A stretch of 64,000 nucleotides of DNA from Litorivivens lipolytica (GCF_014191715.1 NZ_JACHWY010000002.1:558001-622000), one strand, 5' to 3'. Counted from the stretch's first letter, positions 22,519 to 60,620 are shown. Program-made: numbers and translations. The notes: generated by a model not told the origin, from the sequence alone.

Positions 22519-22676
22519 CAGTCTATCGGTTCCCGTCTGTTATGGTTGTCGTACCTGCTTTGCAGCATGCGAGTAGTCTATGGCTTGGTTGCGCAACAAA
22601 TGATATAAAGATAATATATTAATACATTTAAATGTCGAGCGCTGTATTACGTGCCGCCAGCAACCTTGGATTGCGT

Positions 22677-23342: not shown

Positions 23343-23378
23343 TCTGCGCAGGCAGAAACGTTCTTTTTGGAGACAGCA

Positions 23379-34256: not shown

Positions 34257-35054
34257 TTACAGGCCAAAGGCTTCGAATTTGTCAGGCTGGCTAACGAATC
34301 GACTCAGCATCATGCGCTTGGCAATCTTGGCGCCGGTCAGCCAGCGAATTTTGGTGCCGGATTTTTCGGTTTTCAGAATCTGGTCAACCAGATAGGGCGA
34401 TACGGTTTCTACCGTGTCGCACAGGTTGTTCATGGTCTTGCGATTCTTGTTGAAGTTGTTGAGATCGGCTTTGGCCTCACGCACCACAGCTTCGGTGATC
34501 ACCATGCCGGGACGGATTTTGCCGATCACCAGCGGAGAGTCCTTGTTCTCTTTGATCAGGGCGTCAGTAAAGTAATTCAGGCCGCGCTTGGTGGTGCCGT
34601 AAATACCGATGCCGGGAAAGAACTCTCCGTCGCTGCCGCCGCCAAGCATATTGAAGAGTTTGCCGTGGCCCTGTTTTTTCATGCCACTGATGGCCACTTT
34701 GGAGCCGAAGATAGTGCCGAACATATTGGTGGTCACCATCGCCTGAATTTCTTCGTCGGGCGTTTCTAGAATGGGCCATACGGTGCGTGCCAGACCGGCG
34801 TTGTTGATCCAGATATCCACACTGCCAAACTCGGTAACCGCAGCGTCCCAAAGAGCTTGTACCTGATCTTTTTCTGAAACTTCACAGGGGCGACCAGATA
34901 CAGTGCCGGGCTGTGAGCCGATTTCAGCGACGGCCTCATCAATCGCCTGCTGGCTGCGCCCGGCGATCATCACGTTATGACCGAGGCGGGCAAACTCTGC
35001 GGCCAGTCCGCGACCGATACCTTTGGTGCTGCCGGTAATGACAACGTTAGCCAT
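34257..35054 (-). CDS. Short-chain dehydrogenase resembling chlorophyll b reductase (NYC1/NOL-like), copy 1
   Basis: A 265-residue SDR. It has 'NVVITGSTKGIGRGLAAEF' at the N-terminus, 'VDIWINNAG' (79-87), 'KLFNMLGGGSDGEFFPG' and the catalytic 'YGTTKRGL' (Y152, K156), then 'RPGMVITEAV' and 'VETVSPYLVDQIL'. I read the same series in plant NYC1/NOL ('GSTKGLGKAL', 'IDIWINNAG', 'VFNMDGAGSGG', 'YGSTKCGL', 'SPGMVLTDLL', 'PETVARTLV'), which reduce the 7-formyl group of chlorophyll b. GGAGG precedes the ATG. It lies between an epimerase-like gene (3-bp gap) and an RCCR-like gene. Formyl-group reduction on a tetrapyrrole is an inference. Confidence 0.7.
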   Translation of the reverse strand: MANVVITGSTKGIGRGLAAEFARLGHNVMIAGRSQQAIDEAVAEIGSQPGTVSGRPCEVSEKDQVQALWDAAVTEFGSVDIWINNAGLARTVWPILETPDEEIQAMVTTNMFGTIFGSKVAISGMKKQGHGKLFNMLGGGSDGEFFPGIGIYGTTKRGLNYFTDALIKENKDSPLVIGKIRPGMVITEAVVREAKADLNNFNKNRKTMNNLCDTVETVSPYLVDQILKTEKSGTKIRWLTGAKIAKRMMLSRFVSQPDKFEAFGL

Positions 35055-35057
35055 GCT

Positions 35058-35912
35058 TCAAGCCTCCAGCAGGGCGGCATTGGGATCTTCGTGCTGAACC
35101 CGATAGCCGGTGGCGTAGAGTTTGTCGGCGGAAATCTTGCGGTTGGGCGCTTTAATCTGATTCAGGAATTCCAGTCGCGACCAGCCTTCCTTGTCGCAGA
35201 TCGCATCAAAAATCTGCTGGTTGGTGGGCGGCAGGTTGTCGTTGTCGCACACGTTGTAAATGCCGGTCAGGTCGTTTTCCAGGGCGTGAACCGCCGCGTT
35301 AACCACATCTTCAAAATGGATGGTGTAGAGCGGGGCGTCTGCACCAAACAGCGCTTTGCCACCAAAGTAGTCGTGAGCCAGTTTTACCCGTTGGGTAAAG
35401 GTCATATCGCCGGGAGCACCGTGAATATCGGGCAGGCGCAACACGCAACCACCCTTCACGCTTAGGGCGTTGCGCTCGGCAGCCTGATAGTACTTGGAGG
35501 AAGGTTCTTCGTGATTGCTGGTGGGCGTCTCTTCGGTAATGGGGTCTGTCCCCAAACCGCCATCGCCGTAGACCGAAAAGGACGACAGGAAAATTACACG
35601 GTCACAGGCCTTGGCGGCGCTGGCGAGGGATTTCTCCAGTACCTCGTGATACTGGCTTTCGCGCTCTTCCTTGGTGCGGGTATTTTTTACGTTGGGCGCG
35701 ACGGTAGCGATGATGGCGTCGCAGCCTTGGGCGGCGGCAATCACTTTATCGGTTTCGCTGCCTTTAAGAACGGCAACTTCATCGGCTAGGCTTTGCAGCT
35801 CTTCTACCTTGCCGGGGGTGGTGGTAGTGCCCACAATCTGGTGACCGCTGGCGCGCAGGCGTTGGGCAATGGCTTTGCCGGCATGGCCCATGCCGAGAAT
35901 CATGACTTTCAT
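35058..35912 (-). CDS. NAD(P)-binding epimerase/dehydratase-like protein (extended/atypical SDR)
   Basis: A 284-residue protein with an N-terminal dinucleotide fold 'KVMILGMGHAGKAIAQRL' and the downstream 'VIFLSSFSVYGDGG' and 'YYQAAERNAL' regions of extended SDRs. It also has 'LRLPDIHGAPGD' and 'DVVNAAVHAL'. The usual Y-x3-K is not obvious ('SSKYYQAAERN'), so the reaction is unclear. ATG 35912 has AAAGG six bases upstream; the ATG at 35918 would touch that site. It is first in the leftward operon with the NYC1-like and RCCR-like genes. The promoter region to its right holds the 27-bp site at 35974-36000, shared with the divergent VOC gene. Confidence 0.75.
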   Translation of the reverse strand: MKVMILGMGHAGKAIAQRLRASGHQIVGTTTTPGKVEELQSLADEVAVLKGSETDKVIAAAQGCDAIIATVAPNVKNTRTKEERESQYHEVLEKSLASAAKACDRVIFLSSFSVYGDGGLGTDPITEETPTSNHEEPSSKYYQAAERNALSVKGGCVLRLPDIHGAPGDMTFTQRVKLAHDYFGGKALFGADAPLYTIHFEDVVNAAVHALENDLTGIYNVCDNDNLPPTNQQIFDAICDKEGWSRLEFLNQIKAPNRKISADKLYATGYRVQHEDPNAALLEA

Positions 35913-35973
35913 GTGCATCCTTTGTCGCGAGTGCCCAGACCAGATTTGGCGTTGGGCCTTGGTTGTTTTTCAG

Positions 35974-36000
35974 ATATAATGTTATATCAATAGTACATAT
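35974..36000. promoter_or_regulatory. 27-bp repeated site with palindrome, copy 1 (putative operator)
   Basis: The site begins with the palindrome ATATAA-TG-TTATAT (35974-35987) followed by CAATAGTACATAT. It lies between divergent starts of the epimerase-like gene and the VOC protein. A copy matching 25 of 27 bases is at 42993-43019, again between divergent genes of the proposed tetrapyrrole cluster. This suggests a binding site for one regulator, or a shared AT-rich promoter element. Confidence 0.6.
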
Positions 36001-36019
36001 AAACCAGAGGGAGTCAAGC

Positions 36020-36481
36020 ATGGCGAGTGAGAACCCGGCGGCAGCCTTGAAAGACTTTATTGTCGGCCTGCGCCATGTGGGTCATATCGTGGAGGATCTG
36101 CAGGCCAGCATTGCCGACTTTCGCCGAATTTACGGCCTGACCGACGAAGACATCACCGTACTGCCTCCCTTTGGTCAGGAAGCCCCGGCCCGCTTTGGTT
36201 TGCTGAATGTGGGCGGCGTGGAGTTCGAGCTGATTGAACCCATCAGCGACGACATGAAAGCCACCCTCAACGCGGTGACCAGTGGCGCCGGGGGCATTAA
36301 CCATGTGGCCTATGTGGTAAATGATATCGATGCGGCGATGGCGGTGCTGGCAAAGCAGGGCATCCGCCCAGGCCATGTAACGCCGGATGGTGTGGTGGAT
36401 ACCGGCCGTACCCGAATCGCTTACCTCAATCCCGCCGATACCAGCAGCTTGCTGATTGAGCTGGTCGAGGTGTACGGCTAG
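36020..36481 (+). CDS. VOC/glyoxalase-fold protein (methylmalonyl-CoA epimerase-like)
   Basis: A 153-residue vicinal-oxygen-chelate protein. It opens 'GLRHVGHIVEDLQASIADF' with the metal-binding His, has a second-half 'GINHVAYVVNDIDAAMAVL', and ends 'LLIELVEVYG' with the metal-binding Glu. This is the plan of methylmalonyl-CoA epimerase and related lyases. The ATG at 36020 has GAGGGAG at 36007-36013. It abuts the next gene (its TAG is followed directly by ATG at 36482). Substrate unknown; its promoter region carries the 27-bp site. Confidence 0.8.
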   Translation: MASENPAAALKDFIVGLRHVGHIVEDLQASIADFRRIYGLTDEDITVLPPFGQEAPARFGLLNVGGVEFELIEPISDDMKATLNAVTSGAGGINHVAYVVNDIDAAMAVLAKQGIRPGHVTPDGVVDTGRTRIAYLNPADTSSLLIELVEVYG

Positions 36482-37117
36482 ATGAAAACCCTGTTCGACA
36501 TCTTTCCGGTGGATGCAGGGGAGACTCTGCACAGTGAGGGTCGATACCGTTATTGCCTGAACGGCGAATTGACTGATATCCACGAGCCCTGGATGCGCTA
36601 CCAATTGCCTGATGGCGGCCAGGTGATTCGCACCAGCCGCAGCGATGGCAAGAGTTTTGTGCTGGGGGTGAAGTGCTGGATACAAGCCAATCGCACCTAT
36701 GCTTCGCTGTTCTGGGCTAATGCAAGCGGCTATTGCACGGCGAACTATAGGGTTAACGGCGAATCCATGCGCTGGAATCTCGATGGTGAGACGCCAGAGC
36801 AGTTGGAGCTTGATCGGCCGACGCAGTTTTTTCCGCTGATGCGGATTTTCAGCGGGGAAATCTTATTGAGTTTGCTGGCCAATGGTGGCTCGGGCCAGGT
36901 GCTGGTGCCCTCGATCAAATCGCCGGAGCGGCGCGAGACTCTGTTTCGCCCTTTGTTTAGTGAGCGCTCGGTTGAGGCGTTGGGGAGCAATACCTATCAC
37001 TATCGCGGTGGCGAGTACGACGATGGCGCGCGCTATGAATTGAATGATGAGGGACTGCTGCAGCGCTACAGCTGGCAGCAGTCTGAGAATCAGTTCTGGG
37101 AAGTGGAGTTGGTTTAA
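36482..37117 (+). CDS. Conserved-looking protein of unknown function
   Basis: A 211-residue soluble protein that I do not recognise. The ATG directly follows the VOC stop codon, so translation is coupled. It is rich in aromatic residues and predicted beta strands ('RYRYCLNGEL', 'FVLGVKCWIQANRTYASLFW', 'TYHYRGGEYDDGARYEL') and has no signal peptide or membrane segment. A lipocalin-like or heme/bilin-binding barrel is imaginable from the strand pattern, but nothing shows it. The 3' end overlaps the convergent DUF2141 gene by 4 bp. Confidence 0.6.
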   Translation: MKTLFDIFPVDAGETLHSEGRYRYCLNGELTDIHEPWMRYQLPDGGQVIRTSRSDGKSFVLGVKCWIQANRTYASLFWANASGYCTANYRVNGESMRWNLDGETPEQLELDRPTQFFPLMRIFSGEILLSLLANGGSGQVLVPSIKSPERRETLFRPLFSERSVEALGSNTYHYRGGEYDDGARYELNDEGLLQRYSWQQSENQFWEVELV

Positions 37118-38752: not shown

Positions 38753-39652
38753 TTACTGATACCCCGGATCTTCCATAGCACCGATAGAGCGAGACCGCAC
38801 TGGTTGCAGCAGTGCTGGCTCGGCAGCATCGGGGTGCTCTGAATCAGGGCCCCAGTTAACCGGGTCGCCTTTCATCTCCACGCGGGCGTTGTCGGTGTAC
38901 CAATCCACCAGATCGCCGTCGCAGCGCAGCAGCCATACGGTGCCTTCTTCGCCGGCGGTAAAGTCACCGTGGCGAACCAGTGCCGGACGGAAGAAGTAGG
39001 TGCCGGGCCACATTTCACCGTAGTTGTAGTGGAAGCTGCCTTCCAGACAGTAGGCCTCTTCATAACAGGGATGGTGGGCCAGCGGGTGCTCGCGCCAGTT
39101 CGGCTTGGCCTTAATCAGGCGAGTGTAAAAGCCGGTTTTTTCGTCGCGGAACAGCATCTTGATATAGAGGCCGGGTACCGGCGTGCCGCCCAGATCAAAG
39201 CGCATGGGGCTGCCGTCGACCACGTCGATCCAGTCCATGTCGGCGGTGTTGGCAATCACCAGCTTCTGGTCTTCCCGGACAAAGTCCTTGTCCTTGTCGG
39301 TGACTTCAAACTGCCAGTCGCCGTACTCGCGGAAGTAAAGAATTTCGGTGCCTTTCTTTACTTTGAGGGCTGGCGCTACCACGCCGGCCGGCGTGCACCA
39401 GTAGCCGCCTGGCTTCAACACGGTGTCGCCGATGGTGACTTCACCTTCCAGTACGTACCACTCGGTCTGGGCGTTGTGGACGCCGGCCGGGCGCGACCAG
39501 TCGGTGGTGAACTCGATTTTGGCAGAGACTGAGCCATCTTCTTCGTCGTAGCTCAGGTTGCGCTGGCGGGCTTCGCCTTCGGCACAAGGGGCAATTTCGG
39601 CGATGTGCCAGATCAGATCTTTCTCATCAATCAATTCAACGTGTGGGCGCAT
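38753..39652 (-). CDS. Cupin-domain protein (two cupin-like halves)
   Basis: A 299-residue protein that I place in the cupin superfamily. The N-terminal half has 'WYVLEGEVTIGDTVLKPGGYW', a cupin motif 2-like strand pair. The C-terminal half has 'HHPCYEEAYCLEGSFHYNYGEMWPGTYFFRPA', which includes histidines and a Glu in cupin metal-ligand spacing. ATG 39652 has AGAGGA five bases upstream; the upstream start at 39709 is rejected. Possible roles include a dioxygenase or decarboxylase. It is monocistronic, divergent from a small exported protein, within the catabolic region. Confidence 0.72.
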   Translation of the reverse strand: MRPHVELIDEKDLIWHIAEIAPCAEGEARQRNLSYDEEDGSVSAKIEFTTDWSRPAGVHNAQTEWYVLEGEVTIGDTVLKPGGYWCTPAGVVAPALKVKKGTEILYFREYGDWQFEVTDKDKDFVREDQKLVIANTADMDWIDVVDGSPMRFDLGGTPVPGLYIKMLFRDEKTGFYTRLIKAKPNWREHPLAHHPCYEEAYCLEGSFHYNYGEMWPGTYFFRPALVRHGDFTAGEEGTVWLLRCDGDLVDWYTDNARVEMKGDPVNWGPDSEHPDAAEPALLQPVRSRSIGAMEDPGYQ

Positions 39653-39854
39653 GGTTGTCCTCTGGTTCTTGTAGTGGTGCGACTCGATGGGAAGACTATA
39701 GGTGAGCAAGGTAATAATTAAAAAGATATTTTATTTATAGACTGAATAGTCAAAAGGCTATCTATAATATTCGCGCCCCCTGTGAACCACTCAAGAATCG
39801 GCTGCGTATACACCGGCAACAGCGCCTGCTGACAATGCAACCGAGGAGATCATT

Positions 39855-40201: not shown

Positions 40202-41170
40202 TTAGCCTTCAATATAATTGGGCTTCAAAACGTAATCCTTCTCTTCCCACTCCAATACCCCAAACGTCATATATTTTTCATGGTGGCTTTCGTGGAATTG
40301 CCACATGGAGCATAGACTGTATTGATCATCCAGCATGACGTCGCGGGTGGTGAATTTGAAGGCTTCGCCCATAAAGTGGTGCAGGGCGTAATGGTAGCGG
40401 CCGTAGCCGATGGCGTTGCCGAAGACATCCGGGCCGTGAAACTGGTGGTGGTTGCCAGTGCGCGTGCGCTCGAAGCTGAATTCGCGGTTGACCACGCCTT
40501 CGATTTTCACGTGCATGGTGGCGCGATTCAGGTTGATCGGCATATAGTCGATAGTGACCTTATTGACGCCCACCTTTTCCTGATCCGTGTTGTACACATC
40601 CATTTCACCGGTCCAGGTACCAGAGTGTTTCTGTGGCAGGTAGAAGGTTTTCTTACCTGCTTTTTTCTCGTTTTCCAGAAAATCTGCGACGAGCTTTTGG
40701 GTTTCGGGGTTGGTCTCGTGGTCAAAGGTGCGGATGTACAAGCCGTTAAAAGCCGCTACCAGCGTGTCGCCTTCAAACATTTGTGAGGAGTAAACCTGTA
40801 CGCCGCGATCATCCAGTACGTGGTTGATGGTGCGCAGGTTCACGTTCCAGCCCGGCGAGAAGTAGTTGGAATCTACAAAGGGACCGAAGGGGCGGCCGGA
40901 ACCGATAAAATCAGGGCCGGTATAGATACGGTCTTTGTCGGAGTCGATTACACCAAATTCAAAGCGGCCCGTTTCAAAACGGTTGGCCAGCTCGCCGGCG
41001 GCGTCCAGCGCTACGTCCATCCAGTAGGTAGTGCGACCATCCTTGAATTCACTGGCGCGTGTTACCTTGTTGTAGCCCACGTGGGTGCCATCGGGTGTGA
41101 AAATGGAGGGGTAGCCGTGCCAGTCGCCGGTGATATTTTTTTGAAATTCGCTAGGTTGCTTGTCGCTCAT
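40202..41170 (-). CDS. Internally duplicated beta-rich protein of unknown function (calycin-like)
   Basis: A 322-residue soluble protein in two similar halves. Half 1 has 'GDWHGYPSIFTPDGTHVGYNK', 'RIYTGPDFIGSGRPFGPF'; half 2 has 'SGTWTGEMDVYNTDQEKVGVNK', 'HQFHGPDVFGNAIGYGRY'. The pattern of a short Gly-Trp start followed by alternating strands recalls lipocalin/calycin barrels, but I cannot name a family. The second half is rich in histidine ('GNHHQFHG', 'YHYALHHF', 'HESHHEKY'), suggesting metal or tetrapyrrole binding. AGGAAA precedes the ATG. It is the last gene of the leftward operon after the RCCR-like and chlorophyllase-like genes, followed by a terminator. Binding a pigment or removing its metal is speculation. 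Confidence 0.6.
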   Translation of the reverse strand: MSDKQPSEFQKNITGDWHGYPSIFTPDGTHVGYNKVTRASEFKDGRTTYWMDVALDAAGELANRFETGRFEFGVIDSDKDRIYTGPDFIGSGRPFGPFVDSNYFSPGWNVNLRTINHVLDDRGVQVYSSQMFEGDTLVAAFNGLYIRTFDHETNPETQKLVADFLENEKKAGKKTFYLPQKHSGTWTGEMDVYNTDQEKVGVNKVTIDYMPINLNRATMHVKIEGVVNREFSFERTRTGNHHQFHGPDVFGNAIGYGRYHYALHHFMGEAFKFTTRDVMLDDQYSLCSMWQFHESHHEKYMTFGVLEWEEKDYVLKPNYIEG

Positions 41171-41188
41171 GGTGGTTTCCTGTTCCGG

Positions 41189-42166
41189 TTATTTGCACGC
41201 GTAGCGCGAAATCTGTGGGTGATTGGCCAGTTCGGCGAGGTTGGCGTGATCGCCTGTGCCAATGCAGGCCGCAATAAAGTCGGTGATGATGCTGAGCATC
41301 AATTCTCTGAGTTCGCTTTCGTCTCCTGCGGCGGGCCAGTCGAGAAAGGGGCGACCGGTGGTGCCGTCGTAGGGGTGTGCGAAACAGAAATGATTGGCGC
41401 CACGAACCAGTGCGAGGTGGCAGTCGCCGCGCAGGCTGTCTAAGGCCTCGTCAAAGGTTCGACCGATCCGTTCGGTGGGGGTGCTATCTTCTGCATCGCC
41501 ATAACGATTGGCACTGGCGGCGATTACACCGTCCTGTTCACCACCCATAATCAGCATGGGTACACTGCCATCAACGGGCAGCAGGGTGTCTTCGGGAAAG
41601 CCAATCTGAGTCGAGGCGCCCGTGTGGGCGGCGTAGGAAAATCCGCCGATTAATTGCGGAAACCATTCACGGTTGCTGTTTAGCAAGACCGCATTGCCGC
41701 CCGCGGAGTGGCCGCCGAAAATCACTTTGTTGGTGTCGAGCAGTCCCGCCAGTAAGCCTTCGCTATTAAGCTTTTCTATCGCGTCGAGCAAAGTGGGCAG
41801 TGACGAGCAGGAGGGCGCCTTGCCAAAACTATCCGGCGTGAGATAGCGCAGATCAAAGCCGGGGCTGAGGGAGACAAAGCCTGGCATATCCTCTTTTATC
41901 CAGCTAAAGGTAATGCACACCAAGCCAAGCTCGCACAGCCCTTTTGCCAACCAGCTGTAAACTTCCGGGTGGCAGTTGGAGCCGGGCATAAACAGCACCA
42001 CCGGGTAGGGCTGCTCCGGTTTGGCGGCAGGAATAAAACCCATATTACGCTCGTCAGCACTGTCGCTGTAAGCGCTGGGGTAATACACCTTAAGCTGCAG
42101 ACTGTTCCACGGTTCCGGTTCGCCGGGCACCGTGGCAGCGGTGAAGAAGGCGCGAACGTCGGTCAT
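41189..42166 (-). CDS. Chlorophyllase-like alpha/beta hydrolase
   Basis: A 325-residue hydrolase. It has 'YPVVLFMPGSNCHPEVYSWL' (54-73), 'GLCELGLVCITFSW', and the nucleophile elbow 'VIFGGHSAGGNAVLL' with Ser154; candidate acid Asp212 in 'GGEQDGV' and His259 in 'GANHFCF' complete a triad. Plant chlorophyllases show the same order ('PVLLFLHG', 'ASHGFIVVAPQ', 'GHSRGG'). PETase and PAF-acetylhydrolase relatives share this fold, so a general esterase is the alternative. Its ATG overlaps the RCCR-like stop (TAATG), so both are made together. The inferred job is cutting a phytyl or methyl ester off a chlorophyll derivative. Confidence 0.6.
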   Translation of the reverse strand: MTDVRAFFTAATVPGEPEPWNSLQLKVYYPSAYSDSADERNMGFIPAAKPEQPYPVVLFMPGSNCHPEVYSWLAKGLCELGLVCITFSWIKEDMPGFVSLSPGFDLRYLTPDSFGKAPSCSSLPTLLDAIEKLNSEGLLAGLLDTNKVIFGGHSAGGNAVLLNSNREWFPQLIGGFSYAAHTGASTQIGFPEDTLLPVDGSVPMLIMGGEQDGVIAASANRYGDAEDSTPTERIGRTFDEALDSLRGDCHLALVRGANHFCFAHPYDGTTGRPFLDWPAAGDESELRELMLSIITDFIAACIGTGDHANLAELANHPQISRYACK

Positions 42167-42963
42167 TATTCAGGCCGTGGCAGGGTGCGATCCCGGCCCC
42201 ACAGGGCGGCGACCAGGTGGTCACACAGCTCTTTGCCGAACAGGTTTTCCACCACGATATTGGCCGGGTCACCCTCGGTAATAGTCTGGCGGATCAGCAG
42301 ATCGCGCTCGGCTTGTGCCGCTCGGGTTTCCTTGGGCTGCAGTTCTGCGGCATCGACCCAGGCAATCCAGCGATCCAGTTGGGCGTGGGCGACCTTGCGC
42401 AGGTCGTCAATACCTTCGGCACAGACAGCGCCGCCGTAAGCCAGTGAGCAGGGCGACTGGGCTACGCGGGTATACATGTGGCGGCTGATAAAGTGCTGAA
42501 AACGCTCGTTGCGCTCCCATTCAATATAGGTGTCGTTGGCTTCGCCGTTGTAGTACTTGTCGGCGTATTCCGGGTTGGTCCACAGATCCTTGCGCGGCAT
42601 ATAGTCCTGATAAAAGAACAGATCCGGGGTGGTGCCCAGCGCAAAACCGAAGTGGGGCACATCGTACTGGGGGCCCAGATTGATGGTCAGGTGCATATTG
42701 GTAAAACTGGCCTTGGGGTTGCCGGTCCAGCTGTAGATCAGCCAATCGATTTCCGGGCCGGCCCAGGCAGAAAGAAAACCCTGAGCGCCATCTTTGCCGC
42801 TGTAGTCGCCCACGGAGCAGGGGTCCTGAGTCAATTCGAAGCGGGCTTTAACCTTCTCGAACAGTTCGGTGGTGATAGCCCAGAGCTGGTCGAAGGTATC
42901 CTGGCGATCTACGCCGCCCTGTTCAGCGACCAGTTCATCAATGGATTTGGTGATATGTGCCAT
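42166..42963 (-). CDS. Red chlorophyll catabolite reductase (RCCR)-like protein, copy 2
   Basis: A 265-residue paralogue of the protein at 33395. It has 'EIDWLIYSWTGNPKAS' (71-86), 'VPHFGFALG' (102-110), 'YMPRKDLWTNPEYADKYY' (121-138), 'RVAQSPCSLA' and a C-terminal 'LFGKELCDHLV'. These follow plant RCCR in order and spacing. The residue matching the recalled plant catalytic Glu is Ala108. It is the first gene of the leftward operon, divergent from the Rieske oxygenase; in plants the RCCR protein acts directly on the product of the Rieske enzyme PAO. This pairing is the strongest contextual support. No ferredoxin gene is visible. Confidence 0.75.
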   Translation of the reverse strand: MAHITKSIDELVAEQGGVDRQDTFDQLWAITTELFEKVKARFELTQDPCSVGDYSGKDGAQGFLSAWAGPEIDWLIYSWTGNPKASFTNMHLTINLGPQYDVPHFGFALGTTPDLFFYQDYMPRKDLWTNPEYADKYYNGEANDTYIEWERNERFQHFISRHMYTRVAQSPCSLAYGGAVCAEGIDDLRKVAHAQLDRWIAWVDAAELQPKETRAAQAERDLLIRQTITEGDPANIVVENLFGKELCDHLVAALWGRDRTLPRPE

Positions 42964-42992
42964 GAGCTGAAAGCCTGTAATGATTCAATTGA

Positions 42993-43019
42993 ATATAATG
43001 TTATATGAATAATACATAT
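42993..43019. promoter_or_regulatory. 27-bp repeated site with palindrome, copy 2 (putative operator)
   Basis: The same arrangement as at 35974: palindrome ATATAA-TG-TTATAT (42993-43006), then GAATAATACATAT; two of 27 bases differ from copy 1. It lies 30 bp upstream of the leftward RCCR-like start, and the divergent Rieske gene begins 222 bp to the right. A further AT-rich stretch with AAAGATAT repeats is at 43147-43165. Confidence 0.6.
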
Positions 43020-43240
43020 TGTGCTGGCTGGGTGCAATCCGCTTTTTCTCTCTTGCCACTATAGTATGAAGACCAAAGCCGGTTTTTTTGGCTGAAGTGA
43101 AAAATATTTCATCGGCGGGTGATCCGGATCGGCGGATTTTTCGTTTAAAAAGATATAAAGATATGCTATTAGTATAAATAAGCTCGGTTCAGTAGCGCTT
43201 CTGCACGCTCCTGAACCCCGAAAATCGTGGAGGAAAGGCA

Positions 43241-44392
43241 GTGTTAATCAATCTCTGGTACGTGGCTGAGTGGTCGGAAACCCTCAAAGATAAGCCGGTA
43301 AAGGTAAAGATGCTGGGGCAGAACTTTGTTCTGTTTCGCGATGCCGAAGGCAAAGCCAATTGCCTGAGCGACGTGTGCATTCACCGCGGTGGTTCCCTGT
43401 CTGGCGGTAAGTGCATTGATGGCAATGTAGCCTGCCCCTACCACGGCTGGCAGTTTGACGGTGAGGGTAAAGTGCAGTTTATTCCCTCTGAAGGTCGCGA
43501 TTTCCGCATTCCGGATCGCGCCCGGGTTGACGCCTACCCCACTGAAGAGCGCTACGGCATGATCTGGGTGTTTCTGGGTGACTTGCCAGAAGAAGAGCGT
43601 CCGCCGATTCCGCCTTTTCCCGAATACGACGATCCCAAGTGGCGCGCTATTACCGACGAGTGGGTATGGAAGGCAGAAGCAGCCCGTGTAATCGAGAACG
43701 GTATCGATCTGGCGCATGCCTCCTTTGTACACCCGGTGTTTGGTACGCCTGACACGGCCGGTGAGAACAAAATCCTGAAAGTGGAAAAAGACGACCTGAA
43801 CGGTATGTCTTGGAATATCCAGTATCCGCCGCAGTTGAAAGGTGATTTGGGGATTCGCCGGTTTATCCGCAAGGAGAAACAACCCACCGAAACCATTCCC
43901 GGCTATCACCTCTCCGGTTACGTAGTGCGTATTCAGATCAACCTGAACAGCTGGATGAGCATTCTGATGTTTGACTGCAATACGCCAGTTGACGAGCACA
44001 CCACCAAGACCTTTGCGACCCAGTTGCGTACCTTCTTCAAGATTGGTCTGTTCGACGGCGGTTCGCGTAAGCGACTGCGCAAGGTCTTTAAAGAGGACGC
44101 CGAAGTTATCGAGCGCGCATCCCCGAATTACCTGCCAGAAAATCTCGCCAATGAGCTCTCGGTGGCTGACGACAAGTTTATGAGTTCCTTCCGTCAATCG
44201 CGCCGCAAGCTGATTGAAAAGGGCTACCAAATTGATTCCTATACGGTGAAACAGTATGAAGGCCGCAAGGTGTTTGCGATTCCTTCTCCGTTGCGACGCG
44301 AGCGTTCCGATCTGAAATGGGTGCTGGAAGAAATTCCGCTGGTGCAGCCGGTGGCGAGTCTGGCTGTGGGTGAGCAGGAAGCCGTTTCCTGA
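43241..44392 (+). CDS. Rieske non-heme iron oxygenase, pheophorbide a oxygenase (PAO)-like in context
   Basis: A 383-residue oxygenase. The Rieske 2Fe-2S site is Cys46-x-His48 and Cys65-x2-His68. The mononuclear iron site is 'ENGIDLAHASFVH' (Asp156, His159, His164). The stretch 'LSGGKCIDGNVACPYHGWQF' and 'GEGKVQFIP' resembles plant PAO/TIC55-type enzymes, but much of this is common to Rieske enzymes. The C-terminal CxxC and membrane anchors of plant PAO are missing. GTG 43241 has GGAGG seven bases upstream. It heads a rightward operon and is divergent from RCCR-like copy 2. Macrocycle opening is inferred from context; aromatic or steroid hydroxylation or O-demethylation is the alternative. 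Confidence 0.8.
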   Translation: MLINLWYVAEWSETLKDKPVKVKMLGQNFVLFRDAEGKANCLSDVCIHRGGSLSGGKCIDGNVACPYHGWQFDGEGKVQFIPSEGRDFRIPDRARVDAYPTEERYGMIWVFLGDLPEEERPPIPPFPEYDDPKWRAITDEWVWKAEAARVIENGIDLAHASFVHPVFGTPDTAGENKILKVEKDDLNGMSWNIQYPPQLKGDLGIRRFIRKEKQPTETIPGYHLSGYVVRIQINLNSWMSILMFDCNTPVDEHTTKTFATQLRTFFKIGLFDGGSRKRLRKVFKEDAEVIERASPNYLPENLANELSVADDKFMSSFRQSRRKLIEKGYQIDSYTVKQYEGRKVFAIPSPLRRERSDLKWVLEEIPLVQPVASLAVGEQEAVS

Positions 44393-44403
44393 GTTTGGCG
44401 CCC

Positions 44404-45132
44404 ATGTCATTTCAGCACTTTTCGCCCTTGGCGGCCTGGTTGCGGGCCTATACCTATTTTGTAGTGTGCGGTCTTTTTGCCTGGACGACAGGGGCGCTAA
44501 CGCCACTGTTGAGCAGCCCCATGATTCCCGCTGTAGCCGACAGTCTGTGGTGGCTGTGCACAGCAGGTTTACTGGTTTTTATCGGTTTCGCCTACGGCAA
44601 GCTATGGGCCGGCTGGACCCTGCGTTTTAACCGCAAGCTCGATGTGCTGCCGCAGCTGGTGTTTGGTTTGAGTTGGGGCCTTGGTTACGCGCTTTGCTTT
44701 TTAGGATTCTGGCATCTGTCGCTTTCGCTGGCTCAGGGTTGGCCGATATGGGCGGTTTTTCTGCTGGCTTACATACTGATTTCCGTCTGGCAGATACTGT
44801 GGCAGGACCTCGTATGGGACATTTACATTTCCCCCGAGCATGACACCCCCTGGACAACCAAGGTCAAAGTACCTTTTACCCACGTACCCAATGTGACGCT
44901 ATCACTGCTGTATTTTGCGTACTTCGATGCCTACTGGGGGTTTGTTGTCTCGCAGATGCTGGCGCTGACGCTCTGCAGTTTTGCGATGCGAATGCCGGCG
45001 CCCTGGAGCCGGGAAGTAACGCCGGCGGCAACCCGGCACCCTTTCGTGTTCGGTCTGGTTCACGGCGGCGGCTATGTGTCGAGTGATCCTGCCAATGATC
45101 CACATCTCAAAGCCATAGGCGCCCCCTATTGA
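44404..45132 (+). CDS. Multi-pass membrane protein of unknown function in the Rieske operon
   Basis: A 242-residue protein with about six predicted membrane helices (for example 'LVFGLSWGLGYALCFLGFW' and 'IWAVFLLAYILISVWQILW'). Between the last helices is a polar loop 'WDIYISPEHDTPW'. The tail 'GLVHGGGYVSSDPANDPH' is soluble. I do not recognise a family. The ATG at 44404 follows the Rieske stop by 11 bases; the TTG at 44395 is less likely. The tight spacing suggests it works with the Rieske enzyme, for instance as membrane partner or transporter. Confidence 0.65.
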   Translation: MSFQHFSPLAAWLRAYTYFVVCGLFAWTTGALTPLLSSPMIPAVADSLWWLCTAGLLVFIGFAYGKLWAGWTLRFNRKLDVLPQLVFGLSWGLGYALCFLGFWHLSLSLAQGWPIWAVFLLAYILISVWQILWQDLVWDIYISPEHDTPWTTKVKVPFTHVPNVTLSLLYFAYFDAYWGFVVSQMLALTLCSFAMRMPAPWSREVTPAATRHPFVFGLVHGGGYVSSDPANDPHLKAIGAPY

Positions 45133-45145
45133 AATGGAGAGAACC

Positions 45146-45946
45146 ATGAGTAAAAGCGTTGTCATTACCGGCAGCACACGAGGCATAGGGCGCGGCTTAG
45201 CCGAAAATTTCCTGAAGCAGGGTTGCAACGTCGTGATCAGTGCCACCCTGCAGCCGGCTGTTGATCAGGCGGTTTCTGAGCTGGCGGCCCAGTTCGGTGC
45301 GGATAAGGTTGTAGGGCAGGCCTGTGATATCAGTGAGCATAGTCAGCTGGAAAACCTGTGGAGATTTGCAAAGGCGCAGTGCGGTACTGTCGATATATGG
45401 ATCAACAACGCCGGAATCAGTCTGCCGCGTAAGCCCATAACTGACCAAAGCGCCGAGGATCTGGCGCGCATTACTTCTATCAACCTCAACGGTGTGTTGT
45501 TTGCTGCCAATGTCGTGCTCGGGGGCATGAAAGCGCAAGGCGGTGGTCAGTTCTGGGTCATGGAAGGCTTTGGCAGCAACGGCGCTGCACAACCGGGTAT
45601 GGCTGCCTACGGTGCGACCAAGCGCGGTGTGAACTATCTGGCGAAAGCGCTCCGCAAAGATATGGCGGGTAGCAATGTGCAGGTGAATGTACTGAGCCCC
45701 GGTATTGTGGTCACCGACCTGCTGATCGGCGATTACGATACCAGCTCGCCCGAATGGGAAAAGGCCAAAAAGATTTTCAATATTCTCGGCGACAAAGTGG
45801 AAACCGTTACCCCTTGGCTGGTTAACGGTGTGCTGAAAGCGCAAAAGGATGGTGCCCGCGTAGAGTGGCTGACCACCGGCAAAGCCTTTCGCCGCTTTAT
45901 GACCGCCGGCTTTAACAAGCGCGACCTGTTCGCCGAAACCGCTTAA
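45146..45946 (+). CDS. Short-chain dehydrogenase resembling chlorophyll b reductase (NYC1/NOL-like), copy 2
   Basis: A 266-residue paralogue of the SDR at 34257. It has 'VVITGSTRGIGRGLAENF' (5-22), 'VDIWINNAG' (82-90), the catalytic 'YGATKRGV' (Y155, K159), 'LSPGIVVTDLLIG', 'IFNILGDKVETVTPWLV' and 'RVEWLTTGKAFRR'. The 'SPG-V-TDLL', 'FNI' and 'ETV' series in this order is what I recall for plant NYC1/NOL. The ATG at 45146 has GGAGAG upstream; the ATG at 45134 overlaps that site. It is the third gene of the rightward operon after the Rieske enzyme. Confidence 0.7.
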   Translation: MSKSVVITGSTRGIGRGLAENFLKQGCNVVISATLQPAVDQAVSELAAQFGADKVVGQACDISEHSQLENLWRFAKAQCGTVDIWINNAGISLPRKPITDQSAEDLARITSINLNGVLFAANVVLGGMKAQGGGQFWVMEGFGSNGAAQPGMAAYGATKRGVNYLAKALRKDMAGSNVQVNVLSPGIVVTDLLIGDYDTSSPEWEKAKKIFNILGDKVETVTPWLVNGVLKAQKDGARVEWLTTGKAFRRFMTAGFNKRDLFAETA

Positions 45947-45964
45947 CTGTTACGAGATTCCATA

Positions 45965-46741
45965 ATGCAAAACTATCAAATCGCCCGCCGTGCCCAAATC
46001 GGTGTTCTCATTCCCTCCACCAATACCGGCGTGGAATACGATCTGCAAAAATTTGGTCTCGATGGAGTTACCTGGCATCCCTCGCGTTTTCTGATTCGAC
46101 TGCGCAATTGGGCGGAAGAAGGTGAGGCGACCGGCGACGATGCAAACACCGTGTTTGAGCGTTTTCTCGATTTGATGCGCGAGGATATGACGCCAGCCAT
46201 TGAAAACGTGATGACCGCGAAAATCAGTCACCTGATGTTGGGTATGTCCGCCGAAACCTTTTGGGGTGGTATGGCGGGCAATATCGAGTTCGAAAAAAAT
46301 ATTCAGGATCAAATCGGTGATCTGGGTATGACGACCGGCGCCGGTGCAACGCGCATGGCCCTGGATAATTTTGGGGTGAAGAAAATTTCGGTGATTACAC
46401 CCTACCCGCCAGTGGGTGATGATAACGTTCGACAGTTTTTTGATGAAATCGGCTACGAAGTAAAACACGTGGTCGGCCTGAACTGCGCCTCTGCAACGGC
46501 GATTGCCGAAACCCCGATAAAAGATGTGATTGAAGCGGTTAAAAAAGCTGACGGCGATGATGTTGAAGCCATTGTGCAGTGCGGTACCAACCTGTCGACA
46601 GTTGATTTGTTCCCGACGCTGGAGCACTGGCTGGAGAAACCCATGCTGCCGATCAACGTCGCTACCATCTGGCACGCGCTGCGCGCCTGTGGCATCAATG
46701 ACAAGATTACGGGTAAAGGGCGTCTCCTGGAGGAGTTCTAA
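45965..46741 (+). CDS. Asp/Glu-racemase superfamily protein, arylmalonate decarboxylase / maleate isomerase-like
   Basis: A 258-residue paralogue of the protein at 27260. It opens 'IGVLIPSTNTGVEYDLQKFG' and ends 'KPMLPINVATIWHALRACGI'. The first active-site region reads 'LGMSAETFWGG' without Cys, while the second, 'VQCGTNLSTVDL', keeps one Cys. A single Cys at the second position is the arrangement of arylmalonate decarboxylase; maleate isomerase needs both. It is the last gene of the Rieske operon, 18 bp after the SDR. A role in processing a dicarboxylic pyrrole fragment is conceivable. Confidence 0.75.
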   Translation: MQNYQIARRAQIGVLIPSTNTGVEYDLQKFGLDGVTWHPSRFLIRLRNWAEEGEATGDDANTVFERFLDLMREDMTPAIENVMTAKISHLMLGMSAETFWGGMAGNIEFEKNIQDQIGDLGMTTGAGATRMALDNFGVKKISVITPYPPVGDDNVRQFFDEIGYEVKHVVGLNCASATAIAETPIKDVIEAVKKADGDDVEAIVQCGTNLSTVDLFPTLEHWLEKPMLPINVATIWHALRACGINDKITGKGRLLEEF

Positions 46742-49423: not shown

Positions 49424-51790
49424 ATGCCCGAAATTTTAACGCTCAAGGAAATCACCGATCAGGCGGTAGGCGGCAAGGCCGCCGGTCTGGCTGAACTCAC
49501 CCGCCACGGTCTCAATGTGCCACCAGCTTTTGTTGTTGTCGCCGCCAGTGCCGAGCATTTCCCCGACGATCTGGAGGCACAGTATCAGGCGATTGGTGGG
49601 GGCAAGGTTGCTGTCCGTTCATCTGCCATTGGCGAGGATGGGGAAGACAGCTCATTCGCCGGGCAGTACGAAACCATTCTCAACGTGGAGGGGCTGGACG
49701 CCTTGAAGGCTGCTATCGCCCAGTGCGTTCAGTCATTGGATAGCGCGCAGGCCACAGCCTACAAGAGTGAGCACGCGAATCTCGGGGAGGTTGAAATGTG
49801 CGTGGTGGTACAGCGCATGGTGGATGCTCACTCGGCCGGCGTGTTGTTTACTGCCGACCCGGTAACGGGGCGGCACGATCGCTTGGTTATTGACGCAGTG
49901 CGCGGGCTCGGCGAAGCGCTCGTTAGTGGTGAGGTGACCCCGGATCACTACGAGTTGGATCGCAACAACCACGTGGTACGCCGTGAACTTACCGGTGAAT
50001 CTCCCATTCTCTCCGACGCGCAGATTCAGGCCTTGGCTAAGGGTGCGCGCGATGCAGCTGTCAGTATGACGCCCTTGTTGGATATGGAATGGGCGATCGA
50101 TGCCAGCGGTGATCTGTTCTGGTTACAGGCTCGACCGATTACCACACTTGGATCGGACTTGAACGAGCTGGATACTCCGATTCCCGATGATCACGTGATT
50201 ACCCGCTGCAATGTTGGCGAAATGATGCCGGGTGCCGTCTGTCCGTTGACCTTTTCTGTGCAGGGGAGGGCGATCGAACACGGCATGCAGCATATGCATG
50301 TCTGCTATGCGAATCGTCCGGCAATTAATCAGGAATGGACCCAGATTAATCTTTTCTTCGGTCACATGTTTATCAACATGACCGGAGGCCTGCAGTCGTC
50401 GCGCTATGTGTCGATAAATACCGTTGAGAGTATGGGGCAAAGCCTCTGCGGGCGCCCAGTGCCAGAGTTGAAACCGTTAAAAGACCTGGCACCATTCTGG
50501 CGCCGTTGGTACGGCACCTGGCAATTCGCTCGGTATGTGATGCAGTCTCAAAAAGTGCTCACCGAATTCGAGAGTCGCTTCAAGCACGCTTACGTATCCT
50601 ATACCAACGATAGCCTCAGCATGATGAAGGAAATCAATCGCTACTTCCCGTGGATCTGTGAGACGAATGAAGTGCATCTTCGATCTTCTGCTTTTTCCGG
50701 TGTGATGGAAGGGATTGTGCAGAGTTTTGTAGCGGGAGGAAGTCAGCCGCCAGATGCGGATCAGCAGGCCGAAGCCGCACGTTTACTGGCTGGTGCCAGT
50801 GATGTTGAAAGCGCGGTGATGGTTGATCGTCTCGATGATGTTGTCGATCTGATTGCAGAACACCCTGAGGCGGTAACCAGTTTTCAGAAGGTTGATCCAA
50901 GCGAGGCGCTGGCCTGGCTCACAAGTGAAGAATCCGGCGCAGCCCGCTACCGTTTCGAAGAATTCCTGGCGGCTCATGGTCATCGCTCAATTCGCGAGCT
51001 CTGTGTGCGTGAGGCAGGGTGGGTAGACGAACCCGAAAAACTGATCGTCACTATGCAGGCCTCGCTTGCGTCTCGCTTGCAGGGCGCTTACAAACCTCGT
51101 CAGGTAGAAAAAGTCGATATCAGCACACTATCGCGCGGCTTGAGATTCATGTTGCCGGTTGCTCACAACGCAATTCGTCGTCGCGAGCACACCAAGTCGT
51201 TGCTGGTTTTGGTAACGCATCGCCTGAAGCGGGCCTATCGCCATCTTGCCAATTTATTGGTGAGTGAGGGGCATCTTCCCGACGCGGATCTTGTGTTCTT
51301 TTTTACCCACGAAGAATTGAATGAATTTGTCGAAAATCCTAGTTCCGATGGGGTGAGCCGAGCCGAAAAGCGGCGTATCGCACTTTCATTCCATGAAAAG
51401 ATGGAATTTGACGATGTTTACGTTGGTAAACCAGAACCCCTTGTCTGGGAGCCGCCGAAAGATGCGGCTGAAGGGGAGTTAATTGGTCGCCCGGTTAGTC
51501 GGGGTATCGTAGAGGGTGCGGCCCGCGTAGCCCTGACAATACAGGAGGCGGCCGAGCTGCAGCCAGGTGAAATTCTGATAGCACCGATTACCGATATTGG
51601 GTGGACGCCGTATTTCAGTTTGATCGCAGGTTTGGCGACCGATGTGGGGTCTGCGGTTTCCCATGGCGCGGTTATCGCTCGGGAGTACGGATTGCCCGCG
51701 ATTGTTAATTTGCGGCAAGCGACACGCTTGTTCAAAACCGGGGATCGCGTTCGATTGGATGCGGATAAGGGTGTGTTGAGTCGTTTGTAG
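49424..51790 (+). CDS. PEP-synthase / rifampicin-phosphotransferase-like enzyme
   Basis: A 788-residue enzyme of the pyruvate-phosphate dikinase superfamily. The N-terminal ATP-binding domain has 'GGKAAGLAELTRHGLNVP', 'VAVRSSAIGEDGEDSSFAGQY', 'MVDAHSAGVLFTADPVTG' and 'LFWLQARPITT'. A unique middle region (about residues 260-680) follows, then the swivelling phosphohistidine domain with 'AVSHGAVIAREYGLPAIV' (His747). The order ATP domain, middle domain, His domain without a PEP-binding barrel is that of rifampicin phosphotransferase, so it more likely phosphorylates a hydroxyl-bearing substrate than makes PEP. No other gene of gluconeogenesis is near. Phosphorylation of an alcohol released in the pathway (such as phytol) or of a drug is conceivable. 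Confidence 0.8.
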   Translation: MPEILTLKEITDQAVGGKAAGLAELTRHGLNVPPAFVVVAASAEHFPDDLEAQYQAIGGGKVAVRSSAIGEDGEDSSFAGQYETILNVEGLDALKAAIAQCVQSLDSAQATAYKSEHANLGEVEMCVVVQRMVDAHSAGVLFTADPVTGRHDRLVIDAVRGLGEALVSGEVTPDHYELDRNNHVVRRELTGESPILSDAQIQALAKGARDAAVSMTPLLDMEWAIDASGDLFWLQARPITTLGSDLNELDTPIPDDHVITRCNVGEMMPGAVCPLTFSVQGRAIEHGMQHMHVCYANRPAINQEWTQINLFFGHMFINMTGGLQSSRYVSINTVESMGQSLCGRPVPELKPLKDLAPFWRRWYGTWQFARYVMQSQKVLTEFESRFKHAYVSYTNDSLSMMKEINRYFPWICETNEVHLRSSAFSGVMEGIVQSFVAGGSQPPDADQQAEAARLLAGASDVESAVMVDRLDDVVDLIAEHPEAVTSFQKVDPSEALAWLTSEESGAARYRFEEFLAAHGHRSIRELCVREAGWVDEPEKLIVTMQASLASRLQGAYKPRQVEKVDISTLSRGLRFMLPVAHNAIRRREHTKSLLVLVTHRLKRAYRHLANLLVSEGHLPDADLVFFFTHEELNEFVENPSSDGVSRAEKRRIALSFHEKMEFDDVYVGKPEPLVWEPPKDAAEGELIGRPVSRGIVEGAARVALTIQEAAELQPGEILIAPITDIGWTPYFSLIAGLATDVGSAVSHGAVIAREYGLPAIVNLRQATRLFKTGDRVRLDADKGVLSRL

Positions 51791-51900: not shown

Positions 51901-53205
51901 CTAGGTGTTATCCACCGGTGCTACCACCTTATTGCGAACCAGCAGGGCCCAGATCATTACGCCGAAGGCGATCAGTCCGAAAAACACAAAGGGCCCGGAT
52001 TCACGCCAGCTATCAAATAACTGGCCGCCTACTTTCGCCGCCACCAGAATGCCGATGGCGCCGCACAGGTTAAAGAAGCCGTTTACCGCGCCGCGAATGG
52101 CAACCGGCGCCTGCTGCGACAGCAAAACGCCGCTGGTGATAATACAAGCCACTTCGCCCATACCGATAAGAATGGCACATACAATCATTGCGCCACTGAA
52201 CGGATCGGTTACAAAGTACGTGCCGCCGTAGCCCAAAAAGGAAATAAACAGAGCCAGTGCGACGGCACTGACGCGATTCATCTTGTCCGACAAAATGCCG
52301 AAGAAGGGGGCGCTAAGCAGCGTCATGGTTTGCGCAATGCCGACAATCATGCCGGCGCGTGCCAGCGCATCGGCGCGGGACAAGCCCATTTCGCTGGTGC
52401 CGTAGTTGGCAATCCACAGGGTGAAAAAGGTGCCAACAATGGCCAGGTTGCCGCGTGAAACAAAGGCAGCGCCATAAGAGAGGGCGATACCGGGATCTTT
52501 GGCGGCGAGAAAACCCTTGCGGGTGATTTCCCAAAAGCTTTCATTTTCCGTGCTGACTTTCTGCGGAGTTTTCTTCAGTCCCAGCCACATCCACAGGGCA
52601 AAAATACCTGCCAGCGCTGTCACAATGGCGTAGGTGGCAAGGCCGGCGGTCTGGCTGTCCATGCCTTGTGCCTGAAATACCGAAGGCAGACGCAGTAGCA
52701 AAAACACGGTAATCAAAGCGCCAATGCCGTTGGCCATGCCGAGGAAGCCGGTGGCTTTGCCGCGACTGGAATCTTCGGTGTAGTCCGCCATGATCGCAAA
52801 AATCATGCAACTGAAGGCCGCGACACCCACCCCAAACAGCACCCGGTAAACCAGCAGTTCGCCGTAGCTGCGTGCGAAGGGATATAGCGCAACGGCAACC
52901 GCCATAATGGCAAAGCTCATGGCCATTACCGGTCGACGACCGATCTTGTCCGACAGTGAACCCCATACCCCCACGGCGAGGATAATCGCAATTTCACCCC
53001 AGAAGGCGATATTGCCGCTGACCACGCCCTGTTGTTCCTGGGGGATGTTCAAAAACTCCGACAGCAAAAACGGCTGCATTTGCGGCATAAAAGTGGAGAG
53101 CAAAATGCCCGCCATACACGCCACATAAAAGGTGCTCATATGAGAGCGCTGAACGCCGGGCAACAACTGAACGCCTAGCAGTCGATTGGCAACAGGGGTA
53201 GTCAT
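51901..53205 (-). CDS. MFS transporter (paralogue of the one at 31955)
   Basis: A 434-residue transporter with 12 predicted membrane segments. It has motif A-like 'GVWGSLSDKIGRRPVMAMS' and 'LSYGAAFVSRGNLAIVGTFF', shared with the transporter at 31955. The start overlaps the end of the upstream membrane protein by 4 bp (ATGA), so the two are coupled. Its substrate is unknown; presence near the PEP-utilising enzyme and the TonB receptor fits uptake or export in the catabolic region. Confidence 0.87.
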   Translation of the reverse strand: MTTPVANRLLGVQLLPGVQRSHMSTFYVACMAGILLSTFMPQMQPFLLSEFLNIPQEQQGVVSGNIAFWGEIAIILAVGVWGSLSDKIGRRPVMAMSFAIMAVAVALYPFARSYGELLVYRVLFGVGVAAFSCMIFAIMADYTEDSSRGKATGFLGMANGIGALITVFLLLRLPSVFQAQGMDSQTAGLATYAIVTALAGIFALWMWLGLKKTPQKVSTENESFWEITRKGFLAAKDPGIALSYGAAFVSRGNLAIVGTFFTLWIANYGTSEMGLSRADALARAGMIVGIAQTMTLLSAPFFGILSDKMNRVSAVALALFISFLGYGGTYFVTDPFSGAMIVCAILIGMGEVACIITSGVLLSQQAPVAIRGAVNGFFNLCGAIGILVAAKVGGQLFDSWRESGPFVFFGLIAFGVMIWALLVRNKVVAPVDNT

Positions 53206-53858: not shown

Positions 53859-54063
53859 GATTCTGAAATGCTTCTGTTGTTGTTCTGAAATGTCAGTATG
53901 CCGTCTTGTTGACTTAAAAGCTATAATGATATTAGATTATAACAAATGGTGGTTTTCAGGCTGGTAAAGCTGTCGTCATCATCAGGTGTGCCGGGGGGAG
54001 GGCACAGGTTATTTGGCTTAGGCCAAATCGTGGTTTGAAAAGCAGCGCGTGTGGGAAAACACT

Positions 54064-60616: not shown

Positions 60617-60620
60617 TCGC

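Follow-up and report, generated by a model that had tools for sequence, protein, structure and literature searches.

A conserved locus with red chlorophyll catabolite reductase homologues in Litorivivens lipolytica, a candidate pathway for the breakdown of a chlorophyll-type tetrapyrrole

The window analyzed here is a 64,000-nucleotide stretch of the Litorivivens lipolytica genome (GCF_014191715.1 NZ_JACHWY010000002.1:558001-622000; positions are counted from its first letter), and its core, at 40202-46741, includes a homologue of the plant red chlorophyll catabolite reductase (RCCR). The core is part of a catabolic locus of about 50 kb here that starts at 22.6 kb, extends past the window end and centers on three relatives of enzymes with which plants and cyanobacteria process bile pigments and the products of chlorophyll breakdown. 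The locus very probably encodes one conserved pathway for a tetrapyrrole. A chlorophyll-derived tetrapyrrole, imported and dismantled as described below by this non-photosynthetic marine gammaproteobacterium, is moderately favored as its substrate. A sequence-only reading of the core had proposed the opening and reduction of a chlorophyll-derived or related tetrapyrrole; it was right in this main idea, although several of its gene-to-gene equations with plant enzymes were wrong or stay conjectural and it overlooked the other RCCR (33395-34225), a protein with the bilin reductase fold (58470-59213) and the remainder of the locus. Two further genes of the bilin reductase superfamily, a protein of the calycin type, a lipoprotein of the chlorophyllase family and the wide conservation of the locus strengthen the idea.

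The RCCR-like identity of 42166-42963 (minus strand; RCCR_A) proved genuine, with a PF06405 match of 50.6 bits (E = 2e-13; cut-off 24.9), in agreement with its clade and its conservation. RCCR_B (33395-34225, minus strand) reached 62.8 bits against the same cut-off, and its best solved-structure match was Arabidopsis RCCR (E = 1e-14), followed by phytochromobilin synthase (5e-4). PF06405 had no match in 14 control genomes. In the tree, in which branches were long, RCCR_A and RCCR_B clustered with RCCR and not with known ferredoxin-dependent bilin reductases (FDBRs), RCCR_B forming its own clade (support 100). The third protein, here called FDBR-type (58470-59213, plus strand), scored 21.5 bits against PF05996, below the cut-off of 31, and is about 15% identical to known FDBRs. 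Its AF2 model (pLDDT 93), for which the alignment included RCCR rows, has the predicted FDBR fold, with Z scores of 22.7 to PebA/PebB, 22.6 to PcyA and 22.4 to RCCR; it also resembles HY2, and the scores to known bilin reductases span 21-23. All three aligned FDBR-type proteins have Asp94 at the position of PcyA D105 and RCCR E154, and their family profile picked up RCCR_B in the same genomes (E = 1e-7 to 1e-10). Because the protein falls under the first-look threshold, the whole-genome PF05996 search gave no match; it came to light through a direct scan and its predicted structure. The FDBR-type gene was present in the same 4 of 58 close-relative genomes as RCCR. From the profile matches of RCCR_A and RCCR_B and the model and profile of the FDBR-type protein, the window encodes three members of the bilin reductase superfamily. 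PebA, PebB, PcyA and HY2 share the fold and the Asp at the conserved position with the FDBR-type protein, which, unlike them, lies below the PF05996 cut-off and is kept beside nitrilase and acyl-CoA dehydrogenase genes.

Further reductases of these types were found elsewhere (G and L numbers designate other genomes and loci). Microbulbifer has an extra deep-branching RCCR-type gene (L022:12686-13615 and L090:9542-10345); in the L022 copy, Glu occupies the E154 position, and the gene sits between ABH_A, an alpha/beta hydrolase gene also present in the core, and a TonB receptor gene. A more distant gammaproteobacterium, G422, has two RCCR_B-type genes in unrelated neighborhoods (L034:9383-10585 and L035:9663-10535). 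Carrier G452 encodes, besides RCCR-type genes, a protein well over the Fe_bilin_red cut-off (56 bits; L083:9675-10376). In the cyanobacterium Oculatella (L028:3939-5706), a lone RCCR gene, its product 40% identical to RCCR_A, is followed by an NmrA-like reductase gene.

H322 (40202-41170, minus strand) had been described as a His-rich protein of unknown kind, which agrees with its 4.6% His and its lack of any Pfam match. It was predicted to be a two-barrel calycin, DUF3598-like, from a model of low confidence (pLDDT 55) that was closest to 2o62 DUF3598 and BFA1 (Z = 13.8-13.9) and that the barrels of nitrobindin and the bilin lyase CpeS also resemble. Several barrels of this type (in the set of DUF3598, BFA1, nitrobindin and CpeS) bind tetrapyrroles. 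Although without sequence relation to each other, H322 and RCC_reductase occurred in exactly the same 11 of 391 genomes of the order (7 of 142 genera, five families; p = 1e-21 by genome and 5e-12 by genus, uncorrected and with shared ancestry ignored), so that H322 is an obligate co-occurrence partner of RCCR and a chance gathering of the core genes, which the sequence-only reading had considered hard to credit, is excluded. Most relatives of the carriers have neither gene, and in the sister genus only one sampled species has both. Since the carriers belong to five families and both genes are missing from most relatives, the distribution fits a gene set that was passed on and lost as a unit. 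In Microbulbifer (L100:8356-9790 and L101:10124-11590), a protein of about 480 amino acids and of unknown family adjoins H322, at the place taken by RCCR_A and ABH_A in other genomes. In G553 (L105:9847-10655), a broken H322/RCCR_A module, in fragments in different frames beside SDR_A, AMD_A, MFS_A and NITR (all described below), is a decaying second copy.

The search for the same gene set in other genomes that the sequence-only reading had called for returned related loci from several families: Spongiibacteraceae, Halieaceae (Parahaliea maris, Halioglobus), Microbulbifer, Nevskiaceae and other gammaproteobacteria, besides the lone RCCR of Oculatella. Two modules were kept together. Module A consists of H322, ABH_A, RCCR_A, the Rieske oxygenase, SDR_A, AMD_A and MFS_A and continues with TonB_A, NITR, the FDBR-type protein and the acyl-CoA and aldehyde dehydrogenases; module B consists of ABH1, the chlorophyllase-like protein, AMD_B, MFS_B, RCCR_B, SDR_B, EPI and the glyoxalase-like protein. 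Nearly the whole set lies within about 36 kb (L093-L094) in G538, from another family; no plasmid-borne copies of the cluster were found. It is very improbable that the RCCR-like proteins were recruited to a non-tetrapyrrole substrate, such as another heteroaromatic or a terpenoid, in which case any likeness to chlorophyll breakdown would be accidental. Several bilin-reductase-superfamily genes and a calycin whose fold relatives bind tetrapyrroles are kept together in five families, characterized members of the superfamily act on tetrapyrroles, and among the conserved neighbors there is no ring-cleaving aromatic dioxygenase or steroid gene, which the sequence-only reading had named as a sign of a different pathway. 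Such a recruitment would agree with the loss of Glu154 from RCCR_A and RCCR_B and with the presence of a VanA/NdmA-type Rieske oxygenase, a generic short-chain dehydrogenase/reductase (SDR), aldehyde dehydrogenase, acyl-CoA dehydrogenase and CoA-transferase, all common in other catabolic clusters.

None of 13 carriers has a photosynthetic reaction centre, and none has a heme oxygenase (PF01126; the positive control was detected). Turnover of the cell's own photosynthetic pigment was rejected on the first ground and a heme-oxygenase bilin pathway on the second, and both make an exogenous substrate probable. The TonB receptor and the transporters of the locus fit a substrate from outside.

All seven open reading frames of the core were confirmed, each open and at the position and in the direction first assigned. 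They form two divergent transcription units with tight operon spacing: 42166-42963, 41189-42166 (with a 1-bp overlap between them) and 40202-41170 on the left, and 43241-44392, 44395-45132, 45134-45946 and 45965-46741 on the right, with intergenic gaps of 2, 1 and 18 bp. The gene divergent from RCCR_A (43241-44392, plus strand) encodes a Rieske non-heme iron oxygenase, as had been read, with PF00355 and PF19112 (VanA_C) domains and with the CxH..CxxH cluster site and the DxxHx4H iron site intact. Its equation with the plant ring-opening enzyme pheophorbide a oxygenase (PaO) failed: it is of the VanA/NdmA type, its closest solved structures are NdmA and SxtT/SxtDIOX, and membership of the PaO family was rejected from the VanA_C domain, these structures and the absence of PF08417 above cut-off. 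In 12 loci (the window, L009, L010, L024, L026, L027, L029, L079, L091, L094, L095 and L096), the Rieske gene and RCCR_A are at most 10 kb apart.

The hydrolases were likewise only partly as first described. ABH_A (41189-42166, minus strand) is an alpha/beta hydrolase by its GHSAG nucleophile motif and lies beside RCCR genes in 10 others; its identification as a chlorophyllase was rejected, with neither a Pfam nor a PDB match. A chlorophyllase-family hydrolase was found instead at 24985-26013 (plus strand), with a lipoprotein-type signal (LLAAC), a GHSFG motif and a PF07224 match of 40.6 bits (cut-off 26); its orthologues in six loci also exceed the cut-off (32.6-49.3 bits). It adjoins a second alpha/beta hydrolase, ABH1 (24020-24988, plus strand; PF00561), and the pair recurs in relatives. 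The locus thus shares RCCR and the chlorophyllase domain with plants, and the remainder is at best analogous to the plant series of steps.

SDR_A (45134-45946, plus strand; PF00106), which the sequence-only reading had likened to the plant chlorophyll b reductases NYC1/NOL, was confirmed as an SDR; it is conserved in 10 others and its PDB matches are generic SDRs. SDR_B (34257-35054, minus strand; PF00106) is a paralogue of the same subgroup, 40-45% identical to SDR_A orthologues. AMD_A (45965-46741, plus strand), which the sequence-only reading had placed correctly in the arylmalonate decarboxylase (AMDase) superfamily, matched PF17645 with 56.9 bits and has one catalytic-type Cys. Its solved-structure matches are AMDase and maleate isomerase; the score against the curated arylmalonate decarboxylase equivalog was 50.5 bits, under the cut-off of 225, and a maleate isomerase is unlikely given a single Cys instead of two. 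AMD_B (27260-28018, minus strand; PF17645, 28.0 bits) belongs to the AMDase/Asp-Glu-racemase superfamily and is 82-94% identical across genera.

Downstream of the core, module A continues with MFS_A (51901-53205, minus strand; PF07690; conserved in nine others), a major facilitator superfamily (MFS) transporter, and TonB_A (54049-56709, plus strand; PF00593 and PF07715), a TonB-dependent receptor that is conserved ahead of the NITR and FDBR-type genes in G001, G002 and G016 and lies near RCCR elsewhere. NITR (56757-58460, plus strand; PF00795) is a nitrilase-superfamily amidase conserved in 12 others. The FDBR-type gene is followed by an acyl-CoA dehydrogenase-like gene (59348-60616, plus strand; PF02771; same operon in G001, G002, G016 and L026) and two conserved aldehyde dehydrogenase genes (60579-62072 and 62011-63507, plus strand; both PF00171), the operon running on past the window end. 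There (L053, about G000:C2 621480-630030) are genes for an alpha/beta hydrolase, an isochorismatase-type amidase, a GntR regulator, a FAD monooxygenase, a second amidase, two PuuE-like CE4 hydrolases, an HMG-CoA-lyase-like enzyme and a class III CoA-transferase. Imide, amide and CoA-lyase genes recur alongside RCCR.

From these genes the following route is proposed. The chlorophyllase-family lipoprotein at 24985 and the hydrolase at 24020, at the surface or in the periplasm, would free a chlorophyllide- or pheophorbide-like acid, to be taken up through the TonB receptor and MFS carriers. The Rieske enzyme (43241) would oxygenate it and probably open the macrocycle, the role of PaO in plants, after which RCCR_A, RCCR_B and the FDBR-type protein would carry out ferredoxin-dependent reduction of the linear product at different positions, with H322 as a putative bilin-binding barrel. 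ABH_A, the AMDase-like proteins and the SDRs may trim side groups, for example by de-esterification and decarboxylation of ring E. Freed mono- and dipyrroles would then pass through intermediates of the substituted maleimide, maleamate and maleate type (by the PuuE-like CE4 pair, the isochorismatase-type amidases and the nitrilase) and reach central metabolism by CoA-transferase, acyl-CoA dehydrogenase and HMG-CoA-lyase-like steps. Substituted maleimides are familiar fragments of chlorophylls and bilins, and the genes of the lower part of the route, for hydrolysis of imides and amides, CoA transfer and HMG-CoA-lyase-like cleavage, fit their breakdown; chlorophyll maleimides are the subject of PMC9620498. 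Put forward tentatively is the complete breakdown of chlorophyll-derived tetrapyrroles by a cluster sporadically distributed in marine gammaproteobacteria: a Rieske enzyme other than PaO would open the ring, several RCCR and bilin reductase paralogues would reduce the product in steps, and the pyrroles would be assimilated via substituted maleimides into central metabolism.

Detoxification rather than nutrition, in which phototoxic chlorophyll products met on algae are reduced and exported as in land plants, without mineralization, was judged improbable. RND genes are present in the locus besides the MFS genes, and the plant pathway terminates in non-toxic phyllobilins (PMC8621299), as this explanation would have it; however, RCCR is accompanied by a TonB receptor, acyl-CoA dehydrogenase, two aldehyde dehydrogenases, a CoA-transferase, an HMG-CoA-lyase-like enzyme and amide and imide hydrolases, which suggests recovery of carbon and nitrogen.

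A stronger competitor, although still unlikely, is degradation of a tetrapyrrole that is already linear (cyanobacterial or red-algal phycobilins, or environmental heme-derived bilins), with the Rieske enzyme modifying a side chain and not opening a macrocycle. It would account for the FDBR-type protein with its bilin reductase fold and Asp at the D105 position, the likeness of the H322 model to CpeS, the lack of PaO, the true Fe_bilin_red protein of G452 and the presence of Microbulbifer among the carriers. Such a bilin must come from outside, since the carriers have no heme oxygenase; RCCR_A and RCCR_B group, on long branches, with RCCR and not with the known FDBRs used; and the ester hydrolases, including the chlorophyllase-family lipoprotein, would be superfluous for bilins with free propionates. 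A set of several ester hydrolases would suit a plain bilin less well than a substrate of the chlorophyll type, which carries phytyl and methyl esters.

Several observations weigh against a chlorophyll-derived substrate and its complete breakdown. A bilin (phycobilin or heme-derived) would account for most of the genes equally well, and activity of the pathway is predicted from its genes. The PaO domain PF08417 gave only sub-cut-off matches genome-wide, elsewhere in the genome, so that ring opening by a VanA-type Rieske enzyme is a guess. The PF07224 match of 24985-26013 is partial and overlaps other alpha/beta-hydrolase families, there is no Cys in the catalytic position of AMD_B, all of the CE4, isochorismatase and AMDase-like proteins score under NCBIfam equivalog cut-offs, and confidence in the H322 model is low. 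The residues of the reductases count on the same side. Glu154 and Asp291 are presumably the catalytic residues of Arabidopsis RCCR. With numbering anchored on F218V mutant chains in the PDB, the alignment has Ala, Val or Ile at the Glu154 position of RCCR_A and RCCR_B, and Glu is found there only in Oculatella RCCR and one Microbulbifer RCCR type; an invariant Asp lies one column off D291, gap placement being undecided. RCCR_A and RCCR_B may therefore act on other bonds or on other bilins, and from the differences at the E154 position the reductases of the locus probably differ in the bond they reduce. A genome search for the staygreen Mg-dechelatase (PF12638) gave no match, but neither did the controls.

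The plant PaO/phyllobilin pathway (PaO, RCCR, MES16, TIC55), in which the Rieske enzyme PaO opens pheophorbide a and RCCR reduces the bound product (PMC8621299), shares with the locus RCC reductase homologues near a Rieske gene, ester hydrolases, SDRs and, if the locus is read rightly, the conversion of a phototoxic pigment to harmless linear products. Unlike it, the locus has no PaO-family Rieske enzyme, has several reductases instead of one, has lost Glu154 in RCCR_A and RCCR_B, and has amide and CoA-thioester genes, suggesting degradation beyond phyllobilins. Mg-dechelatase homologues have been reported from non-photosynthetic bacteria (PMC8621299). RCCR-like genes of a few cyanobacteria (Nostoc, Anabaena; PMC2716323) and that of Oculatella likewise encode bacterial PF06405 proteins; their hosts, however, are phototrophs, and the Oculatella gene has no cluster genes within the approximately 15 kb examined. 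CPOX, FDBR and RCCR are discussed in PMC10151467, which describes sequences related to RCCR from Ca. Schekmanbacteria and, from heterotrophic bacteria, ancestors of FDBRs. The pre-PcyA/FDBR clusters of heterotrophs have in common with the locus bilin reductase homologues in non-photosynthetic bacteria and small accessory proteins. Their route is aerobic, starts from heme oxygenase and biliverdin and involves bilin-binding globins (BBAG), V4R and Fe-S proteins (PMC10151467), whereas the locus has RCCR-type enzymes and a catabolic gene set and no heme oxygenase. As in maleimide and maleamate degradation (imide hydrolase, maleamate amidohydrolase, maleate isomerase), a PuuE-like CE4 pair, isochorismatase-type amidases and the AMDase/maleate-isomerase superfamily recur with RCCR; unlike there, all the locus proteins fall below equivalog cut-offs, and AMD_A has one catalytic Cys and AMD_B none.

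Few pigments on Earth are as abundant as chlorophyll, of which vast amounts are broken down yearly, largely at sea; we know of no bacterial genes that destroy the chlorophyll ring system. No bacterial chlorophyll-catabolic cluster, and none of this make-up, is described among open-access papers (subscription journals and preprints were outside the scope), in line with the claim first made for the core, and a bacterial gene set for breakdown of chlorophyll-like pigments seems undescribed so far. With the locus come specific genes, carriers known by name (Microbulbifer, Parahaliea, Spongiibacteraceae) and enzymes that can be assayed. It places RCCR in organisms other than phototrophs, a point relevant to the origin of the plant enzyme, and its genes can serve as markers of pigment turnover in metagenomes.

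The remaining genes of the locus are mostly recurrent neighbors. Upstream are genes for a conserved membrane protein of 236 amino acids (22632-23342, plus strand; no Pfam match; homologues near RCCR/FDBR genes in nine other genomes or loci), a glutathione S-transferase-like protein (23367-24020, plus strand; PF13417, E = 1e-16; in six other loci) and the transporter MFS1 (25979-27163, minus strand; PF07690; conserved in G001, G002 and the Nevskiaceae locus L016). Module B also includes the conserved SDR28 (28125-28838, plus strand; PF00106) and an FG-GAP repeat protein (30408-31970, minus strand; PF13517; conserved in G001, G002 and G016). MFS_B (31955-33271, minus strand; PF07690) adjoins RCCR_B and is kept with it in 12 other genomes or loci, and EPI, a NAD-epimerase-type reductase (35058-35918, minus strand; PF01370), adjoins RCCR_B in 14. 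A glyoxalase-fold protein (35963-36481, plus strand; PF13669) recurs in eight others and is followed by a 211-amino-acid protein of unknown kind (36482-37117), whose weak homologues in L017, G016 and others are in the corresponding position. A DUF4437 cupin (38753-39709, minus strand; PF14499), a recurrent neighbor, is 75-79% identical in the Nevskiaceae locus L016 and in G016. The membrane protein of the core (44395-45132, plus strand) has no Pfam match and no orthologue called in other clusters, with a 34% identical relative in G016. Given their little or no conservation with the set, this gene, those at 46776, 47361, 48297 and 49424 and the LysR gene at 37622 are probably local passengers; that at 49424-51790, encoding a PPDK-N/PEP-utilizer protein (phosphoenolpyruvate-synthase-like) and not conserved with the cluster, splits the halves of module A.

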